Positions 39,916 through 54,868 of a stretch of 64,000 nucleotides of DNA are shown in pieces. The DNA is taken from NCBI RefSeq assembly GCF_000293805.1, contig NZ_AMBZ01000022.1:62001-126000 (forward strand), written 5' to 3'. The notes under the pieces were generated by a model. The model was not told the origin of the DNA, did no database searches, and saw only the letters and a program-made list of their open reading frames with translations. Position 1 is the first letter of the stretch; each line of letters opens with the position of its first letter. Source of the stretch: Paenibacillus alvei DSM 29. GTDB lineage: Bacteria > Bacillota > Bacilli > Paenibacillales > Paenibacillaceae. The translations under genes and the position numbers were made by a program.

Positions 39916-40881
39916 GTGGCAAATCAAGTTAAAAGAGCAGGACAAGCACAATCCTCCGCTGTTGTGGTAGAGGAAACTGAACCAACAGTAGGTATCATTT
40001 GCATTGATAATGGAGGATTCAACACTAAGATTTTTTCACAAGACATGGAGTACCCTGTTGTGATCGACAGCAAGAAGGCTTTTGGTCACAATAATTACAA
40101 TAACTTTGGAAGTTCGAGTAACTATCCAGAGGGTACATACAAGATTAAATGGAAGGGGAAGTACTATTTCTTTGGATTACTAGCCCTTCGTTCGAGAAAT
40201 CAGTTAAGTGGTTACACTGCTACAAAGTCAACTGATTATTTCATTCTTTCTGTGCTTCAAGCTTGTGCTTTGTATGGATACGATATTAACTATATTATGA
40301 CTTCTACACCATACCTCAGATACAGTGAAGAAGAACAAGAGCTTATCAATTCGAGACTTCGTGGCGATCATGAACTTGAAATCAACAATAAAGAATACAA
40401 ATTCACGATTGCAGAATCCGTTGTCGCGCCAGAAGCGCTCATTGCTTCCTATGCTGTGAAAAAACAAGGCATTCATAGATGGCTTGACTTAGGAAGTAGA
40501 ACAGTTGGATATGCTTCCACTCAGGTTCATGGTGATTTCTTTGAGTCTGTTGGTGGTGACTCATGCGGCACAATTGAGAAAGAAGGATTAGATATAAGAA
40601 AAGTACTAGAAGACAAAGAAGGAGACGAATTACGCGAGTTCTTGTCTGAGTACGTTGAGAATATTTACAATTACCTTTCCCCTATTTGGGAAGATAATGA
40701 TAACATTACTGCTTTTGGTGGTGGAGCATTGGTTCCAGAACTGGTTGAAGAGTTGCAATTCCGTTATCCTAACCTTTTACCTGATGAAGACCCTCTTACT
40801 CTCCAAGTTCGTGGTATGATGGCGTATGCACTGACACCAGAAGTATATGGAAGTGAAGAAGAATATGACGAAGAAAATTAG
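39916..40881 (+). CDS. parM-like: ParM/Alp-type plasmid-segregation actin
   Basis: 321 residues with the actin-fold signature: phosphate loop 1 ICIDNGGFNTKIF (~29-41), phosphate loop 2 WLDLGSRTVGYAS (~192-204) and adenosine loop TAFGGGALVPEL (~273-284). Such proteins form ATP-driven filaments that push plasmid copies apart. A ParR-like gene overlaps its 3' end. GTG start with AAAGGATGAG. This is strong evidence that the element persists as a plasmid. Confidence 0.88.
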   Translation: MANQVKRAGQAQSSAVVVEETEPTVGIICIDNGGFNTKIFSQDMEYPVVIDSKKAFGHNNYNNFGSSSNYPEGTYKIKWKGKYYFFGLLALRSRNQLSGYTATKSTDYFILSVLQACALYGYDINYIMTSTPYLRYSEEEQELINSRLRGDHELEINNKEYKFTIAESVVAPEALIASYAVKKQGIHRWLDLGSRTVGYASTQVHGDFFESVGGDSCGTIEKEGLDIRKVLEDKEGDELREFLSEYVENIYNYLSPIWEDNDNITAFGGGALVPELVEELQFRYPNLLPDEDPLTLQVRGMMAYALTPEVYGSEEEYDEEN

Positions 40882-42582: not shown

Positions 42583-42704
42583 ATGGCTAAAAATCGCTCG
42601 AATTGGGTCAAAATTTACAAAAAACAGCCCAAAACGACCGATTTCCTGTTTGTATTTGGTAATTATACGCCTAATTACATCAATATGAGTAAAAATCGCA
42701 AGAT
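42429..42704. repeat. Iteron-like repeats before and within the rep gene start
   Basis: Two copies of CTTTTAAACATTTTAAA about 47 bases apart, then three copies of TAAAAATCGC (at ~42567, 42588 and 42690), two of which sit in the first codons of the rep gene. Repeats overlapping a rep start are typical of iteron-controlled plasmid origins. Confidence 0.45.
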
Positions 42705-43332
42705 TTCAAGCCTAGAGTTCGATTATTTGGCTAATATGAAGCCATATATACCAGAAACAGATAAAGACAGCTATAAAGCGCTCAAATATACCATGCTTAA
42801 CAGCATTGAAGCTGTTTTTGGCGACAAATGGTTCAATTTAAAAGAAGCAACCAGACAGGCGATAGATTACATCTGCTTCCTGTCTATTGAGCGTGGTTTC
42901 GTTTATGCAAGCCCTGACCATATTGCTACTCGCTTTGGTATTGGCAAATCTACTGTATATGAAGCGTTAAAATTGTTGCGTGAGGAAGATATCCTGTTCA
43001 AAGCAAACAGATGCTCCCGTAAACAAAACGGATTGGGATGTGCTGTACACTTTTTCACCATCCATCCTTATTTTGCTCATATTAATGGTTATTTAAACCT
43101 TGATTGGAAAGCTAAAGAGAAAGCTGACTGGAAAGCTAATATCCCTGAAATCCCTTGTGAGACAAGCGTTCCGAGCGATTTGGAGACTCCTACCTTGTCT
43201 TTACCTTCTTACGACCTTAAAGAAAAGATTTACATACTAATGTTCCATCATCGTCATCGAATACATCTATCGTTAAGTGTGTTCCAAAAGAGATTAATGA
43301 ATTATATGCGAAACTCTTCGACTTTAGACTAA
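42583..43332 (+). CDS. N-terminal fragment of the Rep-like protein
   Basis: 249-residue frame; the last ~34 residues after SYDLKEK are out of frame. Contains the winged helix-turn-helix (IATRFGIGKSTVYEALKLL). Confidence 0.55.
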   Translation: MAKNRSNWVKIYKKQPKTTDFLFVFGNYTPNYINMSKNRKISSLEFDYLANMKPYIPETDKDSYKALKYTMLNSIEAVFGDKWFNLKEATRQAIDYICFLSIERGFVYASPDHIATRFGIGKSTVYEALKLLREEDILFKANRCSRKQNGLGCAVHFFTIHPYFAHINGYLNLDWKAKEKADWKANIPEIPCETSVPSDLETPTLSLPSYDLKEKIYILMFHHRHRIHLSLSVFQKRLMNYMRNSSTLD

Positions 43333-44033: not shown

Positions 44034-45076
44034 CCTCCTTTGGTAATATCAATTATTTACAACAATGATTGCTTTTATACTAATCCTAGTAATATTTTTT
44101 TAATTAATTTTAAAAGCAACACGAATAGCCAGAAATCCGTCGATTTCCAGCCAATTATCGGCTCCCCATGGGATGAAACCAGAGCAAATAACGAGGGTAT
44201 ACACCTCTGTTCGTGGCATTATGTATGAGCCTGTCGCGCAACAGCTAATGCTATTATCTAGTATATCCAACAGAAATTGATAGTATACATTCGGTAATAG
44301 ATTGCTCTGGAAGGACGTTTGGATAGCTTTATCGGAGATGATGTGGTTTTGCTACACGATAAGCGATGCTGGATCGTAATATTATCGCCAGAGAGACTAG
44401 GAATACCCTGTGAGCCGTTAGGGAGTTATATCGTATATTTGTGCTAGATTTACGAGAGAGCCTTATCGTGGCTACGAGAGCGTCCGTGGGTCGTAAATTG
44501 AAGTCGGAAGTGTGGGTGGGTGTGTACACTCATTGTGAAATGGAAATGATTTGCTTTCATCTGTAAACCATCCCCCGCCCTTCTGTCTATCCTTTTCACA
44601 TATTTTTAGTTATGGGGAAACGGACGGTAAAAAGTTATCAAGAAGAAAATTATTTGAATCGAAAAAAGTATTTTTGCCGTGTTCTAAAATGTTTCCTTAT
44701 TGCAACTTAGTTACCCTGTTTCAAAATAATTATTATCTATTTTAATATTTCTATCGCAAAATTCTTTTTCCTTCCTATCAAATAGTTTCCCAGATGCAAA
44801 ACTATTTGGATGAAGAAAAACTTTTTCGACTCGTATTATAATTAGTGTAGGCGTGAGGCTTGCTTACTACTTCCCATCAAAAACCAAACCACGACACCAC
44901 CAAAAACCCACCAACAACCAACGCAACGCGCTACCAGACGCAACAAAACGCCCTTTTCAGCGTGTTTTCCTTGTGTAAGTCCTATTGTCCACCTATTGCC
45001 CAAAAACGCCTTACAATCAAAATTCAAAAAAACAAAATTATTTTGCAAAAAGCGTGTTATTTTCTAAAATAATGCT
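44034..45076. other. Long gene-free region, possible structured RNA or origin
   Basis: About 1 kb with no convincing frame on either strand. 44160-44560 is GC-richer than its surroundings and has a long-range perfect pairing CCAGAGCAA (44179) with TTGCTCTGG (44302) plus a GAGG/CCTC hairpin inside, suggesting a large structured RNA. 44860-44960 is C/A-rich with almost no G on the plus strand. 44600-44830 is A/T-rich. It divides the maintenance block from the early-gene array. Confidence 0.4.
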
Positions 45077-45090
45077 GTACTTTCTTAGGC
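45077..45090 (-). promoter_or_regulatory. Operator-like repeat O6
   Basis: GTACTTTCTTAGGC on the plus strand (GCCTAAGAAAGTAC on the minus), covering the -35 region of the promoter whose extended -10 (TGGTATATT) is at 45096-45104. Confidence 0.55.
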
Positions 45091-45104
45091 ATGTATGGTA
45101 TATT
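45091..45104 (+). promoter_or_regulatory. Extended -10 promoter opening the early array
   Basis: TGGTATATT at 45096-45104, about 55 bases before the first small gene at 45159. The operator-like copy sits directly upstream, so a repressor there would shut the array's first genes. Confidence 0.5.
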
Positions 45105-45158: not shown

Positions 45159-45308
45159 ATGTCACTACAACAACAATTTGAAATGATCTACGCGCAACGC
45201 AAGCAAGCAGAAAAGGCGAACAACAAAAAACGCATCATCATGCACAACGTTATCCTTGACAAAGGAGAAAAGTCCAAGCTTTACAATAAGAATGTTTATG
45301 TAATGTAA
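45159..45308 (+). CDS. Small basic hypothetical protein
   Basis: 49 residues, MSLQQQFEMIYAQRKQAEKA, helical and basic. GGGAGGAACTACC before the ATG. First gene after the operator-controlled promoter and directly before the sigma-like gene. Confidence 0.6.
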   Translation: MSLQQQFEMIYAQRKQAEKANNKKRIIMHNVILDKGEKSKLYNKNVYVM

Positions 45309-45313: not shown

Positions 45314-45350
45314 GTGTGGGATTCTCTAGTCCACTTTTGTACAATCGTAA
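45314..45350 (+). promoter_or_regulatory. Array promoter, variant spacing
   Basis: GTGGGATTC at 45316 and TGTACAA at 45338 are 22 rather than 20 bases apart. It precedes the sigma-like gene, which would fit autoregulation. Confidence 0.5.
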
Positions 45351-45423
45351 CGAACACGAACGGAACGAAACAAACGCATTTGAGGGAATGCGAAAAACCA
45401 AACGGAAAAGGAGAAATAATATC

Positions 45424-45663
45424 ATGAATAAATTCAAATTGGCTCACGCTATCGCAAAAGTTTTGAAGGGCGACTATTCCGCACGTATGGCATACGCTTG
45501 GCAGATTATTAAGGCAGACCGCTTGCATGAAGTATCAGAACTGCTCGACGTTGAAACGCTCACGCCTAAAATGTATGTATCTGAATACCCATACGCGACA
45601 GCTAAAAAAGCTGACCAGATGCCTAAGAAAGTACGTATAAAATCAAAAACACAAAAAATCTAA
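45424..45663 (+). CDS. N-terminal fragment of the sigma-like protein
   Basis: 79 residues from ATG 45424 with a good ribosome-binding site; ends at KTQKI-stop right after the A6 run. Confidence 0.55.
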   Translation: MNKFKLAHAIAKVLKGDYSARMAYAWQIIKADRLHEVSELLDVETLTPKMYVSEYPYATAKKADQMPKKVRIKSKTQKI

Positions 45664-46549
45664 GAAGGTTCAACCAATCGAAGAACCAGCGCAAAAAATC
45701 GTACATACCGCAATTCCTGAAAACCTTGCAACAGTGTTCACCGCTCAACAGTGCGCGGCAATCGATGAAATTATCACGAACTATGTATATGGCAAGATGG
45801 ACAAGAGAACAGGCAAACGTAACAATGGCGCGAATGAGCTAGAAGGGGAACACATGGACATGGCGCGTTTCCGCTATAATGACGGAATCGAAGCACTCAA
45901 AAATATCAAGGGTGCAACGTTCCCAATGTCCTACACAAACGCAAAAGGCGACGAAGTGGAGTATGATTATACGCCTTTCATGCAACTGCAAACAGCAATG
46001 GTTACTTACTTCCTACGCGACTATGTAAAAATGACTGTAAAGCGTTTCTTAGATATGGGCTTGAATTTCAAGCAATTAGAACAAGTACAAGCAATGGCAA
46101 GCATTGAAGCGAAACAAAGCTATATGATGGCTTCAAGCAATCGCGGGAATATTGTAGCGTTTGACATTGACGACATCATGGACGAATTTGTATTCGATTC
46201 TATGCGCCTAACTTTTAGCGAAACAATGTTCGATAGTGCAGATGATGCGGTTAAAGTATGTTTTATGAGACTTAAAAACGTTATGAGAGTTCAACTTCGT
46301 AAACTCCGCAATCAAACACTAGTTGTCACAGAGCAACAAATGTATGTGCAGGAGGAAGGAGTTTCACGCTCTACAGAAGAAGAAGCGTTACAAATGGCTA
46401 AGGAAATGGGAATTTTCAGTGATGCAGAAATGGAAATTATTCGCCTACGCCTTGAAGGGTTCAAAAAGGTTGAAATTGATAAGCAAGTGGGCAAACGTAC
46501 TGACCGCGATTTCAAGCGCATCGAAAAAGCATACAACGCCGCTGTATAA
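45424..46549 (+). CDS. Sigma-factor-like protein, frame broken once
   Basis: Frames 45424-45663 (MNKFKLAHAIAKVLKGDY) and 45734-46549 join near the A6 run at 45653-45658 into ~375 residues (...KTQK-SKKVQPIEEPAQ...). The second half resembles sigma-70 factors: FDIDDIMDEFVFDSMRLTF then VCFMRLKNVMRVQLRKLRN is like region 2, and FSDAEMEIIRLRLEGFKK followed by VEIDKQVGKRTDRDFKRIEK is like the region 4 helix-turn-helix. It is placed near the head of ~25 non-canonical promoter elements. Start supported by AAAGGAGA. The similarity is by eye; other helix-turn-helix regulators cannot be excluded. Confidence 0.55.
45621..45634 (+). promoter_or_regulatory. Operator-like repeat O7 inside the sigma-like gene
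   Basis: GCCTAAGAAAGTAC, an exact inverted match of copy O6 540 bases upstream. It encodes part of MPKKV, so chance cannot be excluded. Confidence 0.35.
45734..46549 (+). CDS. C-terminal fragment of the sigma-like protein
   Basis: 271 residues if counted from GTG 45734, which has no ribosome-binding site; the frame is open from ~45656. Holds the region 2-like and region 4-like segments. Confidence 0.6.
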   Translation: MFTAQQCAAIDEIITNYVYGKMDKRTGKRNNGANELEGEHMDMARFRYNDGIEALKNIKGATFPMSYTNAKGDEVEYDYTPFMQLQTAMVTYFLRDYVKMTVKRFLDMGLNFKQLEQVQAMASIEAKQSYMMASSNRGNIVAFDIDDIMDEFVFDSMRLTFSETMFDSADDAVKVCFMRLKNVMRVQLRKLRNQTLVVTEQQMYVQEEGVSRSTEEEALQMAKEMGIFSDAEMEIIRLRLEGFKKVEIDKQVGKRTDRDFKRIEKAYNAAV

Positions 46550-46609: not shown

Positions 46610-46645
46610 GTGTGGTTCTCATAGACTTTTATACTAATACATATG
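46610..46645 (+). promoter_or_regulatory. Array promoter (GTGTGG, 14, TATACTA)
   Basis: GTGTGG at 46610 and TATACTA at 46630, 20 bases start to start. Drives the 43-residue gene at 46661; the second box differs from TGTACAA. Confidence 0.55.
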
Positions 46646-46660
46646 AAGGAGGGAAAAGGC

Positions 46661-46792
46661 ATGAAACAAAAATTATTCGCATATATCGCGCAATTTTTCA
46701 AACACCAGCATACAGCACCAGAACGCCGCGAATATACGCCACAAGAACTATATGAAATGGACTTACTGGATTCAGCGGAAGGAATAGCATAG
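46661..46792 (+). CDS. Small hypothetical protein
   Basis: 43 residues, MKQKLFAYIAQFFKHQHTAP. Amphipathic N-terminal helix, acidic end. GGAGGGAAAAGGC before the start. Unknown function. Confidence 0.55.
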   Translation: MKQKLFAYIAQFFKHQHTAPERREYTPQELYEMDLLDSAEGIA

Positions 46793-46830
46793 GAAACGCA
46801 AAAAATAAACCATTATCGGAGGGCTAAAAC

Positions 46831-47184
46831 ATGAAAAAACTTATTACATCCATCATTATTGCAATCATCTTTTTCGTAGGGGCAGGGGTGACGAACGCGA
46901 ATGCAACCGATTTAAACACTTGTGAAATACAACTTCAAAAGCCTATTCATCATGCCGAAATTGTTATGACTACTGAAAAAGTAAAGAGCGTTTTCTATGA
47001 AAAAGGTTGGTACTACTTGGAGACATACGCTGATGACGAAGGCGGTACATGGGTTTTAGAAATTGGGAAAGAACCAAAAAGCGCGGCAAAACTAGACAAG
47101 CTGAAAAAGCAATATACAGGAAAGCTTGTAGATGTTCAATATACAGGTGATTATGAATATCTAGGATGGAACATCCACAAATGA
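46831..47184 (+). CDS. Small exported protein
   Basis: 117 residues. Signal peptide MKKLITSIIIAIIFFVGAGV with an A-x-A site in NANATD, so the mature ~92-residue beta-rich domain acts outside the membrane. GGAGGGCTAAAAC start. Possibly a surface-exclusion or envelope factor; function unknown. Confidence 0.6.
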   Translation: MKKLITSIIIAIIFFVGAGVTNANATDLNTCEIQLQKPIHHAEIVMTTEKVKSVFYEKGWYYLETYADDEGGTWVLEIGKEPKSAAKLDKLKKQYTGKLVDVQYTGDYEYLGWNIHK

Positions 47185-47185
47185 G

Positions 47186-47205
47186 AGAGGGGCGAAAGCC
47201 CTTCT
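47186..47205 (+). terminator. Terminator after the exported protein gene
   Basis: AGAGGGGC / GCCCTTCT with GAAA tetraloop, followed by TTTTTGTTTG. Confidence 0.75.
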
Positions 47206-47251
47206 TTTTGTTTGGCTTGAAAACGTCATGCAAAAATATTTTTATTTTGCG

Positions 47252-47286
47252 TGTGGTTTTTGTCTCAAACTGTACAAATACATATG
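47252..47286 (+). promoter_or_regulatory. Array promoter (GTGTGG, 14, TGTACAA)
   Basis: Boxes at 47252 and 47272; downstream ATACATATGAGGGACAAA leads to the gene at 47318. Confidence 0.65.
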
Positions 47287-47317
47287 AGGGACAAATCATA
47301 TAGAAAAGGTGAAAACG

Positions 47318-47557
47318 ATGGAGTTATTTTTTAGATGTTCATGCGGTAAATTCGAACAAGCAACGAACGCGAATTATGCAAGTACAGAAGACGCGAACAA
47401 GGAAGAAAATCCTTTATGTTGGGATTGTTTCGATGGGAGACAAGACGCGAAAGCATTCCATGAAAGCGGTGGAATTTTCCGCAACTTTGAAGACTGGATG
47501 GAGGACAAAGGCGCGACAATTATAGATGATAGTCATTATATCATACGCGAATATTAA
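47318..47557 (+). CDS. Small zinc-ribbon-like protein
   Basis: 79 residues, MELFFRCSCGKFEQ. Two cysteine pairs (CSCG and CWDC) could form a zinc ribbon; the rest is acidic. ATG 47318 follows AAAAGGTGAAAACG. Function unknown; perhaps a host-transcription or translation modulator. Confidence 0.6.
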   Translation: MELFFRCSCGKFEQATNANYASTEDANKEENPLCWDCFDGRQDAKAFHESGGIFRNFEDWMEDKGATIIDDSHYIIREY

Positions 47558-47569
47558 TTTTTTCAGTGC

Positions 47570-47603
47570 GTGGGATTCCGAAAAACTTTTGTACAAATAT
47601 AAT
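47570..47603 (+). promoter_or_regulatory. Array promoter (GTGGGA, 14, TGTACAA)
   Basis: Boxes at 47570 and 47590, then ATATAATCGAGAGAC; precedes the gene at 47638. Confidence 0.65.
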
Positions 47604-47637
47604 CGAGAGACAATATAAACGGAAAAGGATGATAAAC

Positions 47638-47874
47638 ATGAAAACAGTTCAAACATTGGTAAACGTAAAGAAAGACACTAAGGCAGGCAATCATAGAGTT
47701 TCCATTTCACAAGGGAAAAGAGATTTTTATTACTATGCTACTGCAATTTGCAAGGTTGACGACACAAAAGGAACTTTTGTGATTGATTCAAGTTATGGCA
47801 CACAGTCCACAACTCGTGCATGTAACGCATACCGCAAACATTTTGTAGGGATTGGATACCGCGAAGCAAATTAA
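47638..47874 (+). CDS. Small hypothetical protein
   Basis: 78 residues, MKTVQTLVNVKKDTKAGNHR, basic and beta-rich (RDFYYYATAICKVDD). GGAAAAGGATGATAAAC leader with the shared GGAAAAGG site. Function unknown. Confidence 0.55.
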   Translation: MKTVQTLVNVKKDTKAGNHRVSISQGKRDFYYYATAICKVDDTKGTFVIDSSYGTQSTTRACNAYRKHFVGIGYREAN

Positions 47875-47886
47875 TTTCATATAGGC

Positions 47887-47922
47887 GTGTGGTTTCGCCA
47901 TGCGCCTGTACAATTATATATG
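47887..47922 (+). promoter_or_regulatory. Array promoter (GTGTGG, 14, TGTACAA)
   Basis: Boxes at 47887 and 47907. AGGCG and CGCCT flank the first box, forming a hairpin that ends just before TGTACAA, so a terminator for the previous gene overlaps the promoter. Confidence 0.65.
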
Positions 47923-47956
47923 AGGGACAAAAACAAACGGAAAAGGATGATTAGAC

Positions 47957-48208
47957 ATGGACAAAAAGACATTGATTGAGAAGTACAACAAAGGTGAAAT
48001 TAAGCCTATCGGGGTTACACATATCACGAACACAAGCGGTGTGGCAGTGTGTCATGTTGAACATGGTATCAATGATAAGGTTTTCGGATACATTACGATG
48101 GGCGAAACTAAACAATTCTTTTTCGTCACACTTAAATATTTGACTGAAAAAATTGTTTTCCAAGTTGGGAAAATGCGCTTTGACATAGGCGAATTTATGC
48201 GCGTTTAG
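47957..48208 (+). CDS. Small hypothetical protein
   Basis: 83 residues, MDKKTLIEKYNKGEIKPIGV, mixed alpha/beta, no motif. Leader has GAGGGACAAA and GGAAAAGGATG. Confidence 0.55.
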   Translation: MDKKTLIEKYNKGEIKPIGVTHITNTSGVAVCHVEHGINDKVFGYITMGETKQFFFVTLKYLTEKIVFQVGKMRFDIGEFMRV

Positions 48209-48227
48209 CTCCATAGGCGCGGTGTGA

Positions 48228-48253
48228 AGTGGGTGGGCGAATGCCTACCCACT
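48228..48253 (+). terminator. Terminator
   Basis: AGTGGGT / ACCCACT hairpin followed by TTTT, after the gene ending at 48208. Confidence 0.75.
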
Positions 48254-48301
48254 TTTTAATTTCAAGCGTGAAAACATCCATCGAAATATTTTTGTTTCGG
48301 T

Positions 48302-48335
48302 GTGGGTTTTTGTTTTTGAATTGTACAAATAAATA
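48302..48335 (+). promoter_or_regulatory. Array promoter (GTGGGT, 14, TGTACAA)
   Basis: Boxes at 48302 and 48322, then ATAAATATGAGGTG; precedes the gene at 48349. Confidence 0.65.
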
Positions 48336-48348
48336 TGAGGTGATAATC

Positions 48349-48486
48349 ATGCGAAACTTTAAACATAAAGTTGACGTTTACTTTGACTTAGATGGAAATA
48401 TTGAAGGTCAATTCTTATATTATGGCGCAATTGGAACTATGGCGTTTTCGATGATTGTTGGAACGATTGGAGGGATTTTTTCATGA
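48349..48486 (+). CDS. Small membrane protein
   Basis: 45 residues, MRNFKHKVDVYFDLDG, with a C-terminal hydrophobic helix (YYGAIGTMAFSMIVGTIGG). GAGGTGATAATC start. Single-pass inner-membrane peptide of unknown role; overlaps the next gene by ATGA. Confidence 0.55.
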   Translation: MRNFKHKVDVYFDLDGNIEGQFLYYGAIGTMAFSMIVGTIGGIFS

Positions 48487-48656
48487 GCAACAAAGGGATT
48501 ACAAATGTAGGCAATGGATGGAAATGCACTTGTGGTATCCATAGAAACGCGTCAACGGAAGTTTGGCGCGATTGCGTATGTCGAATTGAACATACAAAAG
48601 AACAAGTCGAAGCGTCGAATATTCTATATTGGAGAAAGTTTTGGAATATCGTGTGA
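48483..48656 (+). CDS. Small cysteine-containing protein
   Basis: 57 residues, MSNKGITNVGNGWKCTCGIH. CxC and CVC pairs could bind zinc. Translationally coupled to the membrane peptide (ATGA). Its last codons GTG TGA are themselves the first box of the next array promoter. Confidence 0.55.
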   Translation: MSNKGITNVGNGWKCTCGIHRNASTEVWRDCVCRIEHTKEQVEASNILYWRKFWNIV

Positions 48657-48686
48657 TTCTATAAAAGTTCTGTACAAATACATATG
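48651..48686 (+). promoter_or_regulatory. Array promoter (GTGTGA, 14, TGTACAA)
   Basis: Boxes at 48651 and 48671. The first box is the Val-stop of the preceding gene. Downstream ATACATATGAGGGG. Confidence 0.65.
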
Positions 48687-48712
48687 AGGGGAAAACGAAA
48701 GGGGAAATTAAA

Positions 48713-48994
48713 ATGGCAAAAATTTTAATCTTTGAAGGTGCAGGATGGGATGTTGCAGAACATAATGGCGTTGGGAATTGCCGAATCCGCACACGAATCA
48801 AAAATATAGATGGAGTTTCCATCTATCTGGAAATGAGCGGCACAAAGAAAAGAAATCGAAGTATTCCAAGTTCTTCGTTTTCAATGCTTACGTTAACCAT
48901 TGTCATGAAGAAGGCAAGGACAACGAAAGTGAGTTCCGCAGATTCCAATATGGAAGTTATGGCAGTTTCGAATACACGCAAGAAGCTATTTTGA
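48713..48994 (+). CDS. Visible frame of the broken hypothetical gene
   Basis: 93-residue frame; only its first ~46 residues are likely to be real. See the joined entry 48713-49092. Confidence 0.45.
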   Translation: MAKILIFEGAGWDVAEHNGVGNCRIRTRIKNIDGVSIYLEMSGTKKRNRSIPSSSFSMLTLTIVMKKARTTKVSSADSNMEVMAVSNTRKKLF

Positions 48995-49092
48995 AATTTG
49001 TAAACGAAAATCTTAATTGTGACTTCGAAGTCATGAAAGTTGTCAACGATGGTTCAATTCGTGTTCATAGTACAAAGGAAAATTTGTGTTAG
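48713..49092 (+). CDS. Hypothetical protein, frame broken once
   Basis: Starts MAKILIFEGAGWDVAEHNGV at 48713 (AAAGGGGAAATTAAA). The frame should change at the A4 run 48848-48851 so that ...MSGTKK continues KKSKYSKFFVFNAYVNHCHE to a stop at 49092, ~127 residues. Downstream of the run the original frame is low-quality Ser/Lys-rich sequence. Unknown function. Confidence 0.55.
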
Positions 49093-49094
49093 TT

Positions 49095-49130
49095 GTGTGA
49101 TTCGATTCAATTTTTGTACAAATAACATTG
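49095..49130 (+). promoter_or_regulatory. Array promoter (GTGTGA, 14, TGTACAA)
   Basis: Boxes at 49095 and 49115, then ATAACATTGAAAGGCGG. The transcript has no good gene, only mini reading frames, before the terminator at 49320. Confidence 0.6.
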
Positions 49131-49353
49131 AAAGGCGGTGAAAGGATGGTTGAGATTTTCGGGTTTACATAGCGACTCACATTGAGGATCACAAGGCTCT
49201 CGCAGGTGCGAACCTAGAAAGGGGAATGCGATATGTGCTAATTAACCTAGAGACGAAAGGGACAAGAACGATATTAAGGAGGGATGATATATATGATTGT
49301 CGAATAGAAATACATCACAAGACTACCAGCACAACGCGCGGTGTTGGTAGTCT
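49131..49353 (+). ncRNA. Possible short RNA with mini reading frames
   Basis: Between an array promoter and a terminator. Three Shine-Dalgarno-like sites lead only to tiny frames: 49146-49172 (8 codons), 49233-49241 (2 codons) and 49284/49293-49307 (4-7 codons). A ~210-base regulatory RNA, or a gene damaged by indels, are both possible. Confidence 0.3.
49320..49353 (+). terminator. Terminator
   Basis: AGACTACCA / TGGTAGTCT hairpin followed by CTTTTTA. Confidence 0.8.
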
Positions 49354-49413
49354 CTTTTTACTAAGCACGAAAAAGGCATACAAAGAAATTTGTATATCTT
49401 TTTGGCGTTTAGT

Positions 49414-49450
49414 GTGGGATTTACTAACGCTTTTGTACAATACATAGTGT
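49414..49450 (+). promoter_or_regulatory. Array promoter (GTGGGA, 14, TGTACAA)
   Basis: Boxes at 49414 and 49434; precedes the gene at 49480. Confidence 0.65.
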
Positions 49451-49479
49451 GAGGGACACACGAAAAGGAGAAGATAAAC

Positions 49480-49836
49480 ATGCAAAAAGAATTAACATTC
49501 ACAAAACATACTCGTAAGGAAGCAGAAGCCAAAGGGCTTCCAGTATTCAATGGATGCAATCATTATGAAATTGATATGTCACATTTGAGAGGGCGTCATG
49601 AAGATGGGCATGAGGATTGGATGAATACAATTGTCGTGAAGCTTCCATTCGGAAATGCACTGACACTTTGCGTAATGCAAACAGGCGGTAATGAGGTATG
49701 TATAGATAGTGCATTCCATGGCGATAACCTCGATGAACATAGAGTATATGCAATGGGTGGCGGTCAAGAAAAAGATACAAATGTATACAACAAAAACATT
49801 TATGCGCTGATTGCAAAGGCGAAAGAAATTAAATAA
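49480..49836 (+). CDS. Hypothetical protein
   Basis: 118 residues, MQKELTFTKHTRKEAEAKGL. His-rich centre (NHYEIDMSHLRGRHEDGHED) could bind metal. AAAAGGAGAAG start. Unknown function. Confidence 0.55.
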   Translation: MQKELTFTKHTRKEAEAKGLPVFNGCNHYEIDMSHLRGRHEDGHEDWMNTIVVKLPFGNALTLCVMQTGGNEVCIDSAFHGDNLDEHRVYAMGGGQEKDTNVYNKNIYALIAKAKEIK

Positions 49837-49852
49837 TAAATTTTTCGGGAGT

Positions 49853-49890
49853 GTGGGAAACCACACTCCTTTTGTACAACTACTATTGAG
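49853..49890 (+). promoter_or_regulatory. Array promoter overlapping a terminator hairpin
   Basis: Boxes at 49853 and 49873. GGAGTGTGG-GAAA-CCACACTCC-TTTT ends exactly at TGTACAA, so a terminator for the previous gene forms the -35 region of the next promoter. Confidence 0.7.
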
Positions 49891-49918
49891 GGACAAAACA
49901 AGAAAGGGAATGGTGAAT

Positions 49919-50383
49919 ATGGGACGCGGTAATGCATGTGTTCATGGTGAATATGAGGGGCTTTACTATGTAGATTGGGACAACTTCCAATCCACATTTG
50001 AAGACGAAGAAGGGGAATATGTTGATTATGAACTTCAATACGAAGAGTGGAGAACTTCGCTAAAAACATTCGTCAGAGACTTCACACAGAAATATAAAAG
50101 CTTTTCCGAATGTGACGAATGGGTGAGCAATGGAGAAAGAGCAGTTATGGAAAGCACACTTTTCTATATTGTTGTCGAAGATAATGAATGGAGCATGGCT
50201 ATAAAACTGATTCAAAAGGAACAGGATTATTATAGCAGGGGTAACTTTAAAAATCTTCAAAAAGGTTTATATAAAAAATACCTTGAAGGCATGAAGAAAT
50301 GCCTGTTTAATCAGTTCGACGAGTTAGGAATATATGGCGGCGCATGGACAAGTGGCAGAATCCAAAAGAATCAAGCGGCATAA
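49919..50383 (+). CDS. Hypothetical acidic protein
   Basis: 154 residues, MGRGNACVHGEYEGLYYVDW. Acidic aromatic N-terminal half and helical second half. ATG 49919 follows GGGAATGGTGAAT. The N-terminal NACVHGEYEGLYYVD pattern recurs in my memory among Firmicute phage proteins of unknown function. Confidence 0.55.
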   Translation: MGRGNACVHGEYEGLYYVDWDNFQSTFEDEEGEYVDYELQYEEWRTSLKTFVRDFTQKYKSFSECDEWVSNGERAVMESTLFYIVVEDNEWSMAIKLIQKEQDYYSRGNFKNLQKGLYKKYLEGMKKCLFNQFDELGIYGGAWTSGRIQKNQAA

Positions 50384-50396
50384 TTTTTCTTGGGGC

Positions 50397-50430
50397 GTGT
50401 GGAAGCACGCCCCTTTTGTACAACTATTAT
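50397..50430 (+). promoter_or_regulatory. Array promoter overlapping a terminator hairpin
   Basis: Boxes at 50397 and 50417. GGGGCGTG ... CACGCCCC-TTTT forms a terminator hairpin whose 5' arm contains the first box. Confidence 0.7.
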
Positions 50431-50467
50431 CGACAAACAAATTAAAACCGACAAGGGGATATGACAA

Positions 50468-50773
50468 ATGAACACAACTAAGACAAATAACGCAGGTAAA
50501 ACTTTTGAAGAGATTTTGAATGGACTTCTTGGCGACATGGAAAAGAAATTCGCAATGGCGATGGCGATAGAGCAAGCAAAAGAAAAGATGAACGAAGAAC
50601 TTCAACAAATGGGCGATATGGTCATGGGTTCTATAGAAGTGGAAGAATGCCCATGCGAACGCAATTGCGGAGCAGTCAAAGTATCGGCAGAATTTACAGC
50701 TATGACATTTACGCAAAAAGGAATTGAAGTAAAGGAAGGCAAGATTGAAAACATTCTGTCATTCAACGAATAG
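50468..50773 (+). CDS. Hypothetical protein
   Basis: 101 residues, MNTTKTNNAGKTFEEILNGL. Helical with Met-rich segment (MAMAIEQAKEKMNEEL) and a CPCERNC cluster. Weak ribosome-binding site (AAGGGGATATGACAA). Followed by the twin hairpins. Confidence 0.55.
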   Translation: MNTTKTNNAGKTFEEILNGLLGDMEKKFAMAMAIEQAKEKMNEELQQMGDMVMGSIEVEECPCERNCGAVKVSAEFTAMTFTQKGIEVKEGKIENILSFNE

Positions 50774-50782
50774 TACACAAGT

Positions 50783-50940
50783 CTAGCCAACTACGGTTGG
50801 CTAGTGAATCGAACGCATAAGTGGTTCCCTCAAACCTTTTCCTACCTTGTGCGCTCGATTCACTACACATGGCTCTGAAAATTAATGCTTGATAAGGTTG
50901 TCCCTCAAAACCTTTTCCTCCTTATTGAGCATTAATTTTT
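50783..50940 (+). ncRNA. Twin stem-loops with shared pyrimidine loops
   Basis: After a small hairpin (CTAGCCAA/TTGGCTAG, 50783-50804) come two strong stem-loops. A, 50803-50864: AGTGAATCGA / TCGATTCACT. B, 50878-50939: AAAATTAATGCT / AGCATTAATTTT extended by ATAAGG / CCTTAT. The stems differ, but both loops hold TCCCTCAAA(A)CCTTTTCCT. Loop parts are complementary to leader motifs of array genes: TTGTCCCTCAA pairs with TTGAGGGACAA before 49919, and CCTTTTCC with GGAAAAGG before 47638 and 47957. A 3'-UTR-derived trans-acting RNA is inferred. Confidence 0.5.
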
Positions 50941-50946
50941 GAAGCT

Positions 50947-50985
50947 GTGGGATTTCGCTTCATATTTGTACAACTATTATCAGGA
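50947..50985 (+). promoter_or_regulatory. Array promoter (GTGGGA, 14, TGTACAA)
   Basis: Boxes at 50947 and 50967; precedes the gene at 50997, with CAGGAGGG ribosome-binding site directly after. Confidence 0.65.
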
Positions 50986-50996
50986 GGGATTAACAT

Positions 50997-51566
50997 ATGA
51001 ATTATCTTAATATTCATGCAGTATCAGAAACCTACGAGCTGGTTGTTGATGCAATCGAAAGCGCGAAGATCGAAGACGCTGAACAAATTGAATGGCAAGA
51101 CGCTTATGTCATGCTTCATGATTCGATGCACGACAAAATGATTAGCGCATACCATTATGGTGAGCCAGCATACACGAAAGACTTGTTCCTGATATTCGGT
51201 GAAATGCTTTCGATAATGCACGATGGGAAGGCGCGAGAAGTCGAATACAATTCGATTATCAATTCCGTCAAAGAGCGTATTAAATTTCTTAATGGCGGCG
51301 AAATAATGGTATGGGTTAATGTTTACACAATTACACGCGAATATGGCGGTGCAGAAGAAGGCGGTTGGTATTATGATTGGAGAAAGTTATCAGACTCACA
51401 GCTTTGTAAATATGAAGATGCTGAAAATATTGAAGCATCTATGCGTGAAAAGTACGGAGAAGGCGAAGGAAACATTTCAAGCGTCCTTGGTGGTTACGAG
51501 ATTGATATATGTATCGAAGGTAGTCGCGGCGCGTCACGCTCGACATGCAGACCGCACTATGAATAA
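50997..51566 (+). CDS. Hypothetical protein, possibly two domains
   Basis: 189 residues. First ~100 are helical and acidic (MNYLNIHAVSETYELVV...). The last ~87 start at an internal ATG (51306, MVWVNVYTITREYGG) preceded by GGCGGCGAA, so a shorter second product is possible. Unknown function. Confidence 0.55.
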   Translation: MNYLNIHAVSETYELVVDAIESAKIEDAEQIEWQDAYVMLHDSMHDKMISAYHYGEPAYTKDLFLIFGEMLSIMHDGKAREVEYNSIINSVKERIKFLNGGEIMVWVNVYTITREYGGAEEGGWYYDWRKLSDSQLCKYEDAENIEASMREKYGEGEGNISSVLGGYEIDICIEGSRGASRSTCRPHYE

Positions 51567-51578
51567 TTTTTACGATGT

Positions 51579-51614
51579 GTGTGATTTTGTGATAAATTTG
51601 TACAATTAATATCG
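51579..51614 (+). promoter_or_regulatory. Array promoter (GTGTGA, 14, TGTACAA)
   Basis: Boxes at 51579 and 51599; precedes the gene at 51642. Confidence 0.65.
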
Positions 51615-51641
51615 ACAAACAAATTTGGAGGATGATTGAAC

Positions 51642-52004
51642 ATGAAACAAACAATCGTAGGGAAATTGGAAAATATCAAATCAAAAATCGATAACGAACT
51701 GATTAAGTGTGTCATTGAGGATGCACTTGAAAATAACGAAGACGCGCAATTATGGCTTGAAGATGTTCGTCAATATGGATGCCAAAGTGGTTCGGTGTCT
51801 GGTCTGATTTATCATGATGATACAAAAAAGTTTTTCAAGGAATACGCCGTTGAAATTGGCGAAGCATTCTTTGAATATAAAGAAGAGTTTGGTGGCTGTC
51901 CACCAATTAACGACAATATTAATTCGTTCGATTGGTTCGCTTGGTTCGGCTATGAGTGGGCAGTTTGCAAGGTGCTGGACAAGTTGGAAAACTACGAAGA
52001 ATAG
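51642..52004 (+). CDS. DUF7222-like hypothetical protein
   Basis: 120 residues. The pattern VRQYGCQSGSVSGLIYHDDT ... FFKEYAVEIGEAF ... FDWFAWFGYEWAV resembles a small helical domain widespread in phages and plasmids, whose function is unknown. GGAGGATGATTGAAC start. Confidence 0.6.
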   Translation: MKQTIVGKLENIKSKIDNELIKCVIEDALENNEDAQLWLEDVRQYGCQSGSVSGLIYHDDTKKFFKEYAVEIGEAFFEYKEEFGGCPPINDNINSFDWFAWFGYEWAVCKVLDKLENYEE

Positions 52005-52019
52005 GCATATATTTACACC

Positions 52020-52057
52020 AAAAGCCCATGACTATGATATAATGGTTGTGGGCTTTT
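52020..52057 (+). terminator. Terminator
   Basis: AAAAGCCCA / TGGGCTTTT hairpin after the gene ending at 52004. Confidence 0.75.
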
Positions 52058-52104
52058 GTATGAAATTAATCCATAAAATTGTTGTGAATTAATTTGATGC
52101 AAGT

Positions 52105-52140
52105 GTGTGAAAACATGATTGTTTTGTACAAATATAGATG
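52105..52140 (+). promoter_or_regulatory. Array promoter (GTGTGA, 14, TGTACAA)
   Basis: Boxes at 52105 and 52125; starts a run of overlapping small genes at 52160-52717. Confidence 0.65.
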
Positions 52141-52159
52141 ATATAGATGAGGTGATAGA

Positions 52160-52381
52160 TTGGCGAAGCAAATAGATAGAGAAATTAAAATCACGATTTC
52201 TGAACGCGAAACTTATTCTTATGAAACAAAAGAAGAAGCTAGTCAACATGATATATTTATGATAGCGGCTGGATGGTTAAGAATAGATCAATACGAATAT
52301 GAAGGGACTTTTTATCAAATATTCACGAAAGGAATTGAATATGACCGCGATAAAAACAAAACCGAAAGTCGTTTCCTATAA
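52160..52381 (+). CDS. Small hypothetical protein
   Basis: 73 residues from TTG 52160 (AKQIDREIKITISERETYSY), start set by GAGGTGATAGA. The pattern (ETYSYETKEEASQHDIFMIAAGW ... YEYEGTFYQIF) looks like a small alpha/beta fold. Overlaps the next gene by 41 bases. Confidence 0.55.
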   Translation: MAKQIDREIKITISERETYSYETKEEASQHDIFMIAAGWLRIDQYEYEGTFYQIFTKGIEYDRDKNKTESRFL

Positions 52382-52520
52382 AGGTTTCAAAATTAAAGAG
52401 GTTGGCGATGAGTTCCATGTCTTCACGAAAGACGAATGGGCTATGCCAGCGGCGGTTCGTGTCGTCGAATGGGAAGCTGGAACCATGCAGGAAGCGAAAG
52501 ACTTTATAGACTCATATTAG
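52341..52520 (+). CDS. Small hypothetical protein
   Basis: 59 residues, MT­AIKTKPKVVSYKGFKI, ATG 52341 with AAAGGAATTGA. Overlaps the gene before. Beta-rich; similar in size and style to small phage GIY-less 'DUF' proteins; unknown. Confidence 0.5.
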   Translation: MTAIKTKPKVVSYKGFKIKEVGDEFHVFTKDEWAMPAAVRVVEWEAGTMQEAKDFIDSY

Positions 52521-52531
52521 GGAGTGAAATA

Positions 52532-52717
52532 ATGACAATCAATGAAAGAGCTATACAACACCTGAAAGAACTTGATGCTTTCAGTGTTCCAAACCCTATT
52601 GTCGCAAAGGCGTGCAAATGTCACGAACATTATGATTGTTGCGATTGTGGCGGAAATGAATGTGGATGCTCATATTGTTTTTCTTGTAACGCTTGTGAAG
52701 AATGTTTGAGTGAATAA
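52532..52717 (+). CDS. Small cysteine-rich protein
   Basis: 61 residues, MTINERAIQHLKELDAF, then ten cysteines in 40 residues (CKCHEHYDCCDCGG, CGCSYCFSCNACEEC). Likely a zinc or other metal-binding peptide. GGGAGTGAAATA start. Confidence 0.6.
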   Translation: MTINERAIQHLKELDAFSVPNPIVAKACKCHEHYDCCDCGGNECGCSYCFSCNACEECLSE

Positions 52718-52732
52718 AACCTTGATACAAGC

Positions 52733-52768
52733 GTGTGTTTTTACCTTGTATCTGTATAACTATATTGT
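52733..52768 (+). promoter_or_regulatory. Array promoter (GTGTGT, 14, TGTATAA)
   Basis: Boxes at 52733 and 52753; the second box has T for C. Precedes the gene at 52813. Confidence 0.6.
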
Positions 52769-52812
52769 GAATAGAAGTTTACTTTTATTGACTTGCATAA
52801 GAAGGTGATGAC

Positions 52813-52986
52813 TTGTCAAAAGAAGATGACCTGTACAAACAGGCAATGAAGCGAATTGCTGAACTTGTGGATGAAGTTTTGCAGACTTGCGATGATGTTG
52901 CAGATGAAAACCATTACGAAAGGGAATGGGTGTTGGAGCAATTTAGAAGTCAGTTCAACAAATCAAAGCGAAATCGGACTCAATAA
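52813..52986 (+). CDS. Small acidic helical protein
   Basis: 57 residues from TTG 52813 (SKEDDLYKQAMKRIAELVDE), AAGGTGATGAC before it. One long helix; unknown function. Confidence 0.5.
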   Translation: MSKEDDLYKQAMKRIAELVDEVLQTCDDVADENHYEREWVLEQFRSQFNKSKRNRTQ

Positions 52987-53013
52987 AACCTTGAATTTAT
53001 GGAGGTAAAGTTA

Positions 53014-53181
53014 ATGATTAAAGTAGTTTCAATAATTGAAAGTGTTATAAGTGGGTACGATGCTTATGTAGAAACAAAAGAAGGGAAACGCTATTATATT
53101 AATTGGGCAACAAAACCTACCGAAGATGAAGTAATAAGAGCATGGAAAGAAGATAAAAGATGGTTTACGCATATCAATTAA
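53014..53181 (+). CDS. Small hypothetical protein
   Basis: 55 residues, MIKVVSIIESVISGYDAYVE. ATG 53014 lies 8 bases after GGAGG, so the in-frame ATG 52999 is rejected. Small beta-beta-helix; unknown function. Confidence 0.55.
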   Translation: MIKVVSIIESVISGYDAYVETKEGKRYYINWATKPTEDEVIRAWKEDKRWFTHIN

Positions 53182-53204
53182 TATTGATGAAAATCAATTA
53201 TTAC

Positions 53205-53224
53205 GGGCTACAGAGATACAGCCC
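53205..53224 (+). terminator. Terminator
   Basis: GGGCT / AGCCC hairpin followed by TCCTTTT. Confidence 0.6.
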
Positions 53225-53253
53225 TCCTTTTAAATTGGATAGGAGAGATTAAA

Positions 53254-53451
53254 ATGAATTTATACTACGTTACCTATGAAACCTCAGACGACAGTAGCGG
53301 CTACCTACAAGAGTTTGTTGTTGCAAGTAGTGAATCAGGAGCCGAGGATGCAATTATCAATAAGTTTCGTGGAAGTGGATTGAGCAAAAACGATATAGTT
53401 GCAACATTGGTTGAGGTTGATGGATACACTATTTGTGTAATGCCTAAATAA
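53254..53451 (+). CDS. Small hypothetical protein
   Basis: 65 residues, MNLYYVTYETSDDSSGYLQE, acidic alpha/beta (VVASSESGAEDAIINKF). GGAGAGATTAAA start. No array promoter directly before it; probably co-transcribed or read through. Confidence 0.55.
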   Translation: MNLYYVTYETSDDSSGYLQEFVVASSESGAEDAIINKFRGSGLSKNDIVATLVEVDGYTICVMPK

Positions 53452-53465
53452 AACTGGATTCAGTT

Positions 53466-53500
53466 GTGTGTTTTTAACTTACATCTGTACAACTATAGAT
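53466..53500 (+). promoter_or_regulatory. Array promoter with flanking dyad
   Basis: Boxes at 53466 and 53486. CTTACATC before and GATGTAAG after TGTACAACTATA form a perfect 8-base dyad around the second box. Confidence 0.65.
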
Positions 53501-53520
53501 GTAAGCAATAAAACATATAA

Positions 53521-54015
53521 ATGAAAGTTGGTGCAGTAATGAAAACTAATAATGATAAAGTTATTGAAACATTTATTAACGGTATGACTGGATTTTATTC
53601 TAACAGAATAAAAATAGAAGATGCACCACATGCTACAAAATTAGTTTATAATATAGATGAAAAATATCCTTCTGGTTTTCGTGATATAGCAATCTATACA
53701 AAACATGACGGTATGGTACGGCTTACAGGACATCCACCATATCATCCAATACAACACAGATTATTGATGACGATTCGTAATGTTTCACCAGAAAAGCTTT
53801 ACCCTGATCCTGATTATCTATTAGGGTTCAGCGGTTGTTGCAAACAAACAGGGAATATATATAAATTCGAGTGTCCTAAGTGCAGATATGATTTGGAATT
53901 GGCTATAGCACATGAAAAGGGAATCACTTGGGATAAGGCTATTAATTGCAATTTGTGTGATTCGTTATTGTTTGTTGAATCAGCTTCTGATGAAATCAAT
54001 GTACATATTATCTGA
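53521..54015 (+). CDS. Hypothetical zinc-binding protein
   Basis: 164 residues from ATG 53521; ATG 53539 has the better ribosome-binding site (AAGTTGGTG) and may be the real start. Cys pairs CCKQTGN, CPKC and CNLC near the C-terminus suggest a zinc ribbon. Unknown function. Confidence 0.55.
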   Translation: MKVGAVMKTNNDKVIETFINGMTGFYSNRIKIEDAPHATKLVYNIDEKYPSGFRDIAIYTKHDGMVRLTGHPPYHPIQHRLLMTIRNVSPEKLYPDPDYLLGFSGCCKQTGNIYKFECPKCRYDLELAIAHEKGITWDKAINCNLCDSLLFVESASDEINVHII

Positions 54016-54033
54016 ATAAATTTTTACTCAATT

Positions 54034-54070
54034 GTGTGATTCACTCATACTTTTGTACAAATTAATGTGA
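54034..54070 (+). promoter_or_regulatory. Array promoter (GTGTGA, 14, TGTACAA)
   Basis: Boxes at 54034 and 54054; ATTCAC and GTGAAT flank the second box as an inverted repeat. Confidence 0.65.
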
Positions 54071-54084
54071 ATGGACAGGTTGGA

Positions 54085-54717
54085 ATGAAACTTACTGGTG
54101 CTGAAAGAAATGCTTTAAAGTTGGATTTTGGTTTTCCCTTGCGAGTGAAAGGCGAGAATATAGAAGTGAAAAAGTGCGAGTCTTGGACTGTGATCTATAC
54201 AGTTGAAGAAGGAAAGAAGATTGCCCAAACAATAATATCAAACAATAAAACGTACAAGGCTGGAACAAAGAGAGGTGAAGGCATAGCTTTTGAACGCCTT
54301 GACAATAAGGAAATACAAGAACAAAAGGAAGAGTTAGGTTCTATTATCAAATCGAGAATAGATGAAATAGGATCTAGTCTTAGAAAGCTTGAAAGCTCAA
54401 CGAATGTTCATAGCCCACAAATTCATGGTATAACTAGCGGCAATAAGAATTATACCATAGAAAATTTTTTAAGAGTGCTGAATGCTCTTGATTTGGAGAT
54501 TACAATTTCACAAAAACAGAAAAATAAGGAGGACATCATGAAAGTCTGGACAGTTAAATTTAAAAGCTTTAACAGGGAAGATTATTGCGAAACTGTATCG
54601 GGACGCAATGAAGAAGAAGCAAGAAAGAATGCCCTGAAAGCCGTTGTTCGCCATGATGATCGTGATAAAATTTATTGGATTAAAGAAGATATTTCTGCAA
54701 ATAAAAATTCAATCTAG
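54085..54717 (+). CDS. Apparent fusion of a helix-turn-helix protein and a small protein
   Basis: One open frame of ~210 residues. Residues ~85-150 (SRIDEIGSSLRKLESST ... YTIENFLRVLNALDLEI) look like an XRE-type helix-turn-helix. The last 59 residues start at an internal ATG (54538, MKVWTVKFKSFNREDY) with a perfect AAGGAGG site. One extra A in the A5 run 54520-54524 would create a stop (AAA-TAA) just before that site, so two separate genes are likely. The start 54085 follows AGGTTGGA. Confidence 0.5.
   Translation: MKLTGAERNALKLDFGFPLRVKGENIEVKKCESWTVIYTVEEGKKIAQTIISNNKTYKAGTKRGEGIAFERLDNKEIQEQKEELGSIIKSRIDEIGSSLRKLESSTNVHSPQIHGITSGNKNYTIENFLRVLNALDLEITISQKQKNKEDIMKVWTVKFKSFNREDYCETVSGRNEEEARKNALKAVVRHDDRDKIYWIKEDISANKNSI
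54538..54717 (+). CDS. Small hypothetical protein at the end of the fused frame
   Basis: 59 residues, MKVWTVKFKSFNREDYCETV, acidic-basic alpha/beta with a NEEEARKNALKAVV helix. Strong own ribosome-binding site. Confidence 0.6.
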   Translation: MKVWTVKFKSFNREDYCETVSGRNEEEARKNALKAVVRHDDRDKIYWIKEDISANKNSI

Positions 54718-54718
54718 C

Positions 54719-54756
54719 GTGTGACTCCATCTCACTTTTGTACAATAATTAGTGAG
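54719..54756 (+). promoter_or_regulatory. Array promoter with dyad
   Basis: Boxes at 54719 and 54739. CATCTCAC and GTGAGATG form an 8-base dyad around TTTTGTACAATAATTA. Confidence 0.65.
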
Positions 54757-54760
54757 ATGG

Positions 54761-54816: not shown

Positions 54817-54868
54817 TACTTCGTTAAATAAAATGTGAGTTCAATTTAGAATTTAGGAAGTGTATGGG

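Follow-up and report, generated by a model that had tools for sequence, protein, structure and literature searches.

What does the gene at 45424-46549 (+ strand) encode, and could its product drive the array of promoter-like sites that lies downstream? This question arises from the window, the 64,000-nt stretch analyzed in this work, which lies within a 141,141-bp contig from Paenibacillus alvei DSM 29 (genome size 6.8 Mb). The original prediction had placed a sigma-like gene behind an operator-covered promoter and proposed a cascade that runs from a repressor to a sigma factor and then to a regulon. Based on the comparison of three phages, we consider that this gene probably encodes a diverged ECF-like phage sigma factor with regions 2 and 4, which belongs to a family absent from the searched libraries and serves the promoter array through one repressed head promoter.

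The nearest phage record by terminase is Brevibacillus phage Sundance (85% identical), and a closer relative was found in Paenibacillus agilis N4 as a contig of 140,902 bp. The P. agilis phage contig has a 110-bp overlap between its ends, as in a circular molecule, and no end overlap of this kind was found on the P. alvei contig. The window contains genes for an actin-like partition protein (39916-40881) and a helix-turn-helix (HTH) protein (42583-43332) that matches replication families, which together suggest a large plasmid-like phage, or phage-plasmid. The MrpR orthologues described below link this element to the SPbeta-type phages. In addition, MrpR and PHROG 5767 genes lie about 40 kb apart in a further stretch of the P. 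alvei genome (G000:C9:352619-394861) and in another genome (G138:C1:220516-262152), which suggests a second prophage of similar kind in the former and a relative in the latter. The parts of these two stretches that were covered contain no array, and each stretch has one ordinary ECF sigma gene near the PHROG 5767 gene. The ECF protein of the P. alvei stretch overlaps a PF04542 match, and the ECF genes may be of either host or prophage origin.

In the window, the sigma-like gene is divided between two frames, namely, an N-terminal part of 79 aa (45424-45663, +) and a main part of 298 aa (45653-46549, +), with the frame change located within an A-rich stretch near 45653-45663. In P. agilis N4, the same parts form one intact open frame of 338 aa. 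The main part is 65% identical to the P. agilis version over the alignment. The Sundance homolog gp193 (212 aa, annotated as hypothetical) is found at the equivalent location and lacks the long N-terminal part. Because of the split frame, the window copy may be broken, mis-sequenced, or shifted. One possible reading, which we find somewhat less convincing than its opposite, is that the gene is a pseudogene and that the array of this phage is silent or weakly read; this concerns the window copy only and is compatible with the sigma reading of the family. The two frames, the intact P. agilis counterpart, and the presence of only a degenerate array element before the window gene are in line with such decay. 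However, the 24 array sites are well preserved, and both regions 2 and 4 lie wholly within the second frame, in which an ATG at 45854 with AGAAGGGG upstream is a possible restart, such that the two regions could still be made. Furthermore, gp193 has no comparable long N-terminus, and a sequencing error is also possible, with the only second copy of the window gene seen not being an independent source.

The case for sigma identity is carried by a profile match that involves three proteins and two regions. The proteins from the window, P. agilis, and Sundance align with each other through regions 2 and 4. This three-member alignment (A4) was compared by hhalign with an alignment of host sigma proteins, which represents 25 of the 30 sigma-70-family loci in the P. 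alvei genome (five were dropped by a length filter of 140-300 aa). The match extends over 144 columns with regions 2 and 4 in order (Prob 85.2, E 6e-6), and the score of 43.1 exceeds the maximum of 29.3 among 100 column shuffles and the 16.2 of the reversed alignment. The two-member alignment of the window and P. agilis proteins (A5) also matched the host sigma alignment (E 0.0028, 103 columns), with a score of 28.3 compared to at most 24.3 in 100 shuffles. The sigma-like segments predicted for this gene are thus present above chance. The approximate position of the region 2-like segment is 46100-46320 (+), as defined by hhalign with the host sigma alignment (A5 211-321, A4 15-209) and by the gp193 alignment; both A4 and A5 score above all shuffles here, in order with region 4. 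The region 4-like segment, which contains the HTH of the -35 type, is located at approximately 46400-46549 (+) according to hhalign, the gp193 alignment, and structure comparison. As a yardstick, SigN as a single sequence matched the same host alignment about as well as A4 (Prob 81.5, E 1.1e-5), and gp193 used by itself reached Prob 73.0 (E 3.1e-5).

A profile of the window and P. agilis proteins retrieved gp193 as the top Sundance ORF (E 8.1e-5), with the match in the C-terminal HTH. When used alone, the window ORF ranked first among the 166 phage ORFs of at least 110 aa by a narrow margin (score 25.6, runner-up 23.5), with only region 4 aligned (34 columns) and region 2 not seen. Conversely, gp193 ranked first among 135 Sundance ORFs (score 38.2, runner-up 29.6) through region 2 only (52 columns). 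In Pfam, gp193 matched Sigma70_r2 (E 0.02, residues 21-77) and GerE (E 0.058) in the right order, with both below the cut-off. HTH proteins that look unrelated scored 29.6 in Sundance and 29.6 and 28.1 in other prophages against the sigma profile, over 27-43 columns only, so scores near 28, such as that of A5, prove little. Among the curated models of Pfam, PHROG, and NCBIfam, none passes its cut-off for this family. A first search of PDB sequences found no match, and the PDB search with A4 found no sigma factor, its only matches being weak ones with glycoside hydrolases (E 0.011) and with a helicase (E 0.058).

For the structures, the AlphaFold models, one each for gp193 and the P. agilis protein, are both poor (mean pLDDT 53.1 for one and 46.7 for the other), and Foldseek found no match with E <= 0.001 for either model. 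The best Foldseek match of gp193 was an ECF sigma factor (E 0.031). For the P. agilis protein, a designed protein came first (E 0.97) and a sigma factor third. In VIA-align, 46 of the 50 rows for each model are sigma chains by title. Residues 156-212 of the gp193 model align to region 4 of SigD (Z 7.6, rmsd 2.2 over 56), and LuxR-type response regulators account for 4 of the 50 rows in this region 4 comparison. Because no Z value reaches 8 and Foldseek itself had selected the rows, the structure comparison alone would be insufficient for assigning a sigma factor.

The promoter array claimed by the original prediction is real. Downstream of the sigma-like gene, we found 24 promoter-like sites with the consensus GTGKGATT-N12-TGTACAA-NTATATATGAGG, which span 46610-60336 (+) when each is counted from 20 before to 16 after the start of its TGTACAA-type box. 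These boxes start at 46630, 47271, 47590, 47907, 48322, 48671, 49115, 49434, 49873, 50417, 50967, 51599, 52125, 52753, 53486, 54054, 54739, 55149, 55938, 56600, 57636, 58344, 59155, and 60320. Of the 25 TGTACAA sites on the + strand between 45 and 60.4 kb, 21 are preceded by a GTG at a distance of exactly 20 bases. A matrix built from these 21 seeds, which match by construction, was applied to the 141-kb contig. With a cut-off of 16 bits, it detected 24 sites on the + strand, including the non-seed sites 46630, 52753, and 59155, and none on the other strand; 10 Markov shuffles gave 0.1 sites per strand. The 24 sites score 32.4-49.9 bits, or 23.8-46.4 bits when each is left out in turn. Their form is promoter-like, with a -35-like box, a 16-bp spacer, a -10 box of the type TACAAT, TATAAC, or TACATT, an AT-rich stretch, and a purine at the expected start. 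By a simple rule, 19 of the 24 sites are followed within 170 nt by an ORF with a Shine-Dalgarno-like site. The variant array promoter that had been noted directly before the sigma-like gene does exist as an element at 45314-45351 (+), but it is degenerate (3.2 bits by the matrix used for the 24 sites), with GTG at 22 and 24 rather than 20 bases before TGTACAA.

The two boxes with fixed spacing are present in all three phages, and the sigma-like protein would be their cognate factor. At a threshold of 16 bits, the window matrix detected 19 sites in P. agilis and 10 in Sundance, with none on the opposite strand of either phage; when the threshold is 8 bits, P. agilis has 24 sites. Sundance has its own array form, GTGTGWTTTT-N11-TTACATTANTATATGAAG, with GTG at 21 before 14 of the 15 TTACATTANTANATG sites. 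A matrix refined on the Sundance sites gave 17 matches, which correspond to 16 distinct sites (one is in the terminal repeat), and no match on the other strand. Among 295 genomes, the exact pattern GTGKGATT-N12-TGTAYAA occurs 10 times in the P. alvei genome and nine times in P. agilis, in each case exclusively on the phage contig and not on the host chromosome outside of it; a further 15 genomes have one copy each, and the reversed control gave six copies in total. Sigma-A-type sites are not enriched in the array region (50 observed vs. 60.1 expected, sd 7.3), and the possibility that the array sites are plain sigma-A promoters was rejected on this basis. SPBRE was likewise considered as the array element and rejected after comparison with SPbeta 40-134 kb. 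As for individual sites, one overlaps a hairpin (50392-50433), with its GTGTGG box being part of a terminator-like stem at 50392-50413; in another (49851-49889), GTGTGG at 49851 pairs with a CCACAC located just downstream. A Thg1 gene (tRNA-His guanylyltransferase-like, 55182-55913, E 1.6e-28) is found behind one array site.

Between the Paenibacillus and Brevibacillus phages, conservation is seen for the -35 box and the C-terminal HTH, and drift for the -10 box and region 2. This pattern fits a protein that reads both boxes, although a sample of three phages is too small to test such co-drift. In region 4, Sundance is identical to the window protein at 13 of 34 positions and to the P. agilis protein also at 13 of 34; for region 2, the corresponding values are 10 and 15 of 58. 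These observations also bear on the strongest rival for the role of the protein, namely, that it is a sigma-derived co-activator. In this scenario, the -10 box, which is TACAAT-like, would still be read by host sigma-A, and the phage protein would bind the GTGKGATT box, or sigma-A itself, and replace the missing -35 contact, for which MotA of phage T4 is the model. In favor of such a role, the array -10 box is close to TATAAT, the box of sigma-A, the C-terminal HTH was the part found first by sequence (gp193 E 8.1e-5), and region 4 is better conserved than region 2 between gp193 and the window protein. However, the protein also has region 2 in its proper order, which an activator would not need, and the -10 box varies between phages while the -35 box stays. 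We thus consider a co-activator unlikely.

It is less likely still that the array elements are operators and that the HTH protein represses or silences the array: the palindrome TTGTACAA occurs at 18 places in the window, 15 of which are between 45 and 60 kb, but neither Sundance's TTACATTA nor the GTGTG box is palindromic, every array site is on the coding strand, 19 of the 24 are followed by an ORF as noted above, and sigma-A-type promoters, the potential targets of repression, show no enrichment there.

Another gene in the window, located outside the cassette at 33748-34857 (-) and at the place of SPbeta yonO, encodes a protein that matches PHROG 5767 'sigma factor'. The C-terminal segment of this protein is cysteine-rich and has weak matches of the HNH/endonuclease VII type. 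That this gene rather than the one at 45424-46549 serves the array is similarly improbable, because despite the strong PHROG match (1.7e-82) and a Sundance counterpart annotated as a sigma factor, the protein does not resemble the host sigma alignment (Prob 0.9), the gene sits among late genes, and the partial stretches around five other loci in the genus that match PHROG 5767 (E <=3.2e-24, one in the P. alvei genome) contain no array by the strict pattern. These findings suggest that, in these phages, the annotated sigma factor gene may encode something else and that the unannotated gene is the one for a sigma factor. In the same five partial stretches, the best match of the family profile has an E of 0.17 (not accepted). 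Similarly, nine partial stretches with MrpR or PHROG 5767 matches (407 ORFs) contain no sigma-like protein beyond the two ordinary ECF proteins, the next scores being short HTH matches (29.6 and 28.1). Since these stretches are partial, such absence of the gene or the array there is not proven.

The putative sigma factor defined above has a narrow distribution and is known from three phages only. Homologs were found in 2 of 295 genomes of the family, 2 of 19 of the genus, and 1 of 392 of the order, with the P. alvei genome included in these counts. A weak match from Phycisphaerales (38% over 50 residues) was dropped; the same contig search otherwise gave P. agilis. Among INPHARED phages, tblastn found no match with the queries P0002 and P0003 and only Sundance itself (two records) with gp193. 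Scans of IMG/VR for the array pattern gave 29 and three stretches, among which the P. alvei phage is represented by three sites in one stretch and Sundance by four sites in two; the others have a single site each and were taken as chance. The sigma-like gene and the array co-occur in all three phages known to have either.

How, then, may the gene be controlled? The operator-covered promoter predicted ahead of it was recovered. An operator-like 15-bp repeat TGTACTTTCTTAGGC (45076-45090, +) covers the head promoter, for which the sequence indicates a sigma-A-type extended -10 element, TGgTATATT (45096-45104, +), followed by a small first ORF of 49 aa (45159-45308, +). In P. agilis, the repeat is found at the same place with one mismatch, before TGtTATTAT, and only 67 nt separate it from the sigma-like gene. 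In Sundance, the head is TTGACT-N17-TATCAT, with a two-mismatch copy of its own repeat version in the spacer, and gp194 is the small first gene at the equivalent place. An operator-like repeat over a sigma-A-like head promoter is thus common to all three phages. The copy at 45076 is one of 41 with at most two mismatches on the P. alvei contig. With at most one mismatch, the repeat GCCNAAGAAAGTAC (GCCAAATAAAGTAC in Sundance) has 34 copies in the P. alvei phage, 28 in P. agilis, and 21 in Sundance, compared to 0-1 in five shuffles; examples are found at 24720, 33688, 34907, 37282, 39619, and 45076 of the window and at 115692, 114511, and 86549 of Sundance. Some copies are within sigma-A-type promoters, but the repeat also occurs many times away from recognizable promoters, such as after stop codons, before Shine-Dalgarno-like sites, and inside genes, including the sigma-like gene itself (45621-45635). 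The exact copies that fit a strict promoter pattern are 3 of 21 in the P. alvei phage, 3 of 20 in P. agilis, and 1 of 11 in Sundance. An array-type promoter is located upstream of the head in P. agilis (25.6 bits, 173 nt before the repeat) and Sundance (58.9 bits by its own matrix, 147 nt before the repeat), which points to positive feedback as in SigN.

The candidate repressor is an MrpR (YopR) orthologue at 62260-63285 (+; Pfam MrpR_N_CB 3.5e-22 and MrpR_C_cat 9.8e-11), which was also the match of SPbeta YopR in the window by tblastn (E 6.8e-19). This gene has its own sigma-A-like promoter, TTGCCT-N17-TATAAT, as read from the sequence, and the orthologue is the putative binder of the 15-bp repeat. 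In all three phages, it is located beyond the array. In the window and Sundance, the array ends, a GmrSD_N gene follows (DUF262-type, 60366-62027, +, Pfam E 6.5e-16; Sundance gp158, Pfam E 6e-14), and the MrpR orthologue comes next; in P. agilis, the orthologue is at 58.7 kb of C9 and the array extends down to 60.9 kb. The idea of a cascade from repressor to sigma factor to regulon is supported in the sense that the repeat on the head promoter and the MrpR orthologue are present in all three phages, but the repressor gene lies beyond the far end of the array and not before the sigma-like gene.

Taken together, we infer the following cascade. In the lysogen, the MrpR-type repressor would occupy the operator-like repeat in the head promoter and keep the sigma-like gene silent. 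Upon infection or induction, host RNA polymerase with sigma-A would transcribe the head operon, as the promoter sequence implies. By homology, the phage protein would then join the host core RNA polymerase through region 2, with region 4 reading GTGKGATT as the -35 box and region 2 reading the TACAA-type -10 box 16 bp downstream. The approximately 24 promoters found before small early genes may then fire, and the upstream array-type promoters in P. agilis and Sundance may add positive feedback. Control of one repressed promoter would in this way be turned into control of the whole array. A broader version of this model is, in our judgment, evenly poised between right and wrong. It states that MrpR-controlled phages have a distinct sigma family, in which MrpR guards one head promoter and an autoactivating sigma factor relays its release to about two dozen dedicated promoters. 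Lysogeny would then need one silent gene rather than a repressor at every early promoter, and the sigma factor and its promoters would evolve together.

If true, the model adds a second regulatory layer to MrpR-type phages that is not seen in SPbeta and names the driver for a large set of uncharacterized early, perhaps host-takeover, genes. It also offers a way in which a single repressor may keep an entire takeover program silent, and an orthogonal sigma factor with a strict promoter may be of use for work in Gram-positive bacteria.

Several known systems are relevant for comparison. In the lytic phage SPO1, gp28 is a phage sigma factor for a temporal class, the middle genes. The phages phiEco32 and 7-11 also have a phage sigma factor whose own promoters were found by genome comparison, but they are lytic, have an anti-sigma factor, and use few promoters for middle and late genes (PMC4331800). 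The Brevibacillus phages Jenst and SecTim467 have 19 and 20 copies of a promoter-like motif as well as sigma-like genes, and sigma use was proposed; however, they belong to another phage cluster, their motif is stated to be absent from Sundance, and the section on this motif makes no mention of the Sundance array (PMC4909266). Among the matches listed from the open-licence literature, none describes the sigma-like gene or the Sundance array.

SPbeta resembles the P. alvei phage in having MrpR, which binds SPBRE (PMC10516654), and in that some sigma-A-type promoters contain a recurrent operator-like element; SPBRE sits within such promoters in the SPbeta record. The difference is that the operators of SPbeta are directly in the promoters of its genes, and neither an array-like site nor a sigma relay was found in SPbeta 40-134 kb. 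The late genes of SPbeta use YonO (PMC8270828), for which tblastn gave no match up to E 1 in the contigs of the three phages. SPbeta seems to work otherwise. To call the cascade unknown would nevertheless go too far, as SigN (ZpdN) of the Bacillus subtilis plasmid pBS32 is a close functional precedent for this kind of system.

In vitro transcription has established SigN as a sigma factor (PMC6751061), and its record carries the annotation 'sigma factor'. According to the same study, it is also a diverged ECF-like sigma factor on a phage-like plasmid with its regulon on the element (19 listed promoters, 17 measured and two predicted), and it is expressed from a sigma-A promoter under a repressor and from a sigma-dependent promoter of its own. 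An actin-like filament gene lies beside the SigN gene as well. Unlike in the cascade proposed here, the repressor of SigN is LexA of the host, the genes served include many for replication and nucleotide functions, and the promoters read are of the type ATTTACGTTTT-N-GATATAA (Table 2 of PMC6751061), a consensus that the window array lacks. SigN and the phage family show no clear pairwise homology (blastp of SigN with gp193, E 0.019 over 21 residues; hhalign Prob 0.5). Phage sigma factors with their own promoters, namely, SigN and those of phiEco32, 7-11, and SPO1, are a known kind; the sigma family, the promoter array (including that of Sundance), and the coupling to an MrpR cassette look new among the literature matches listed.
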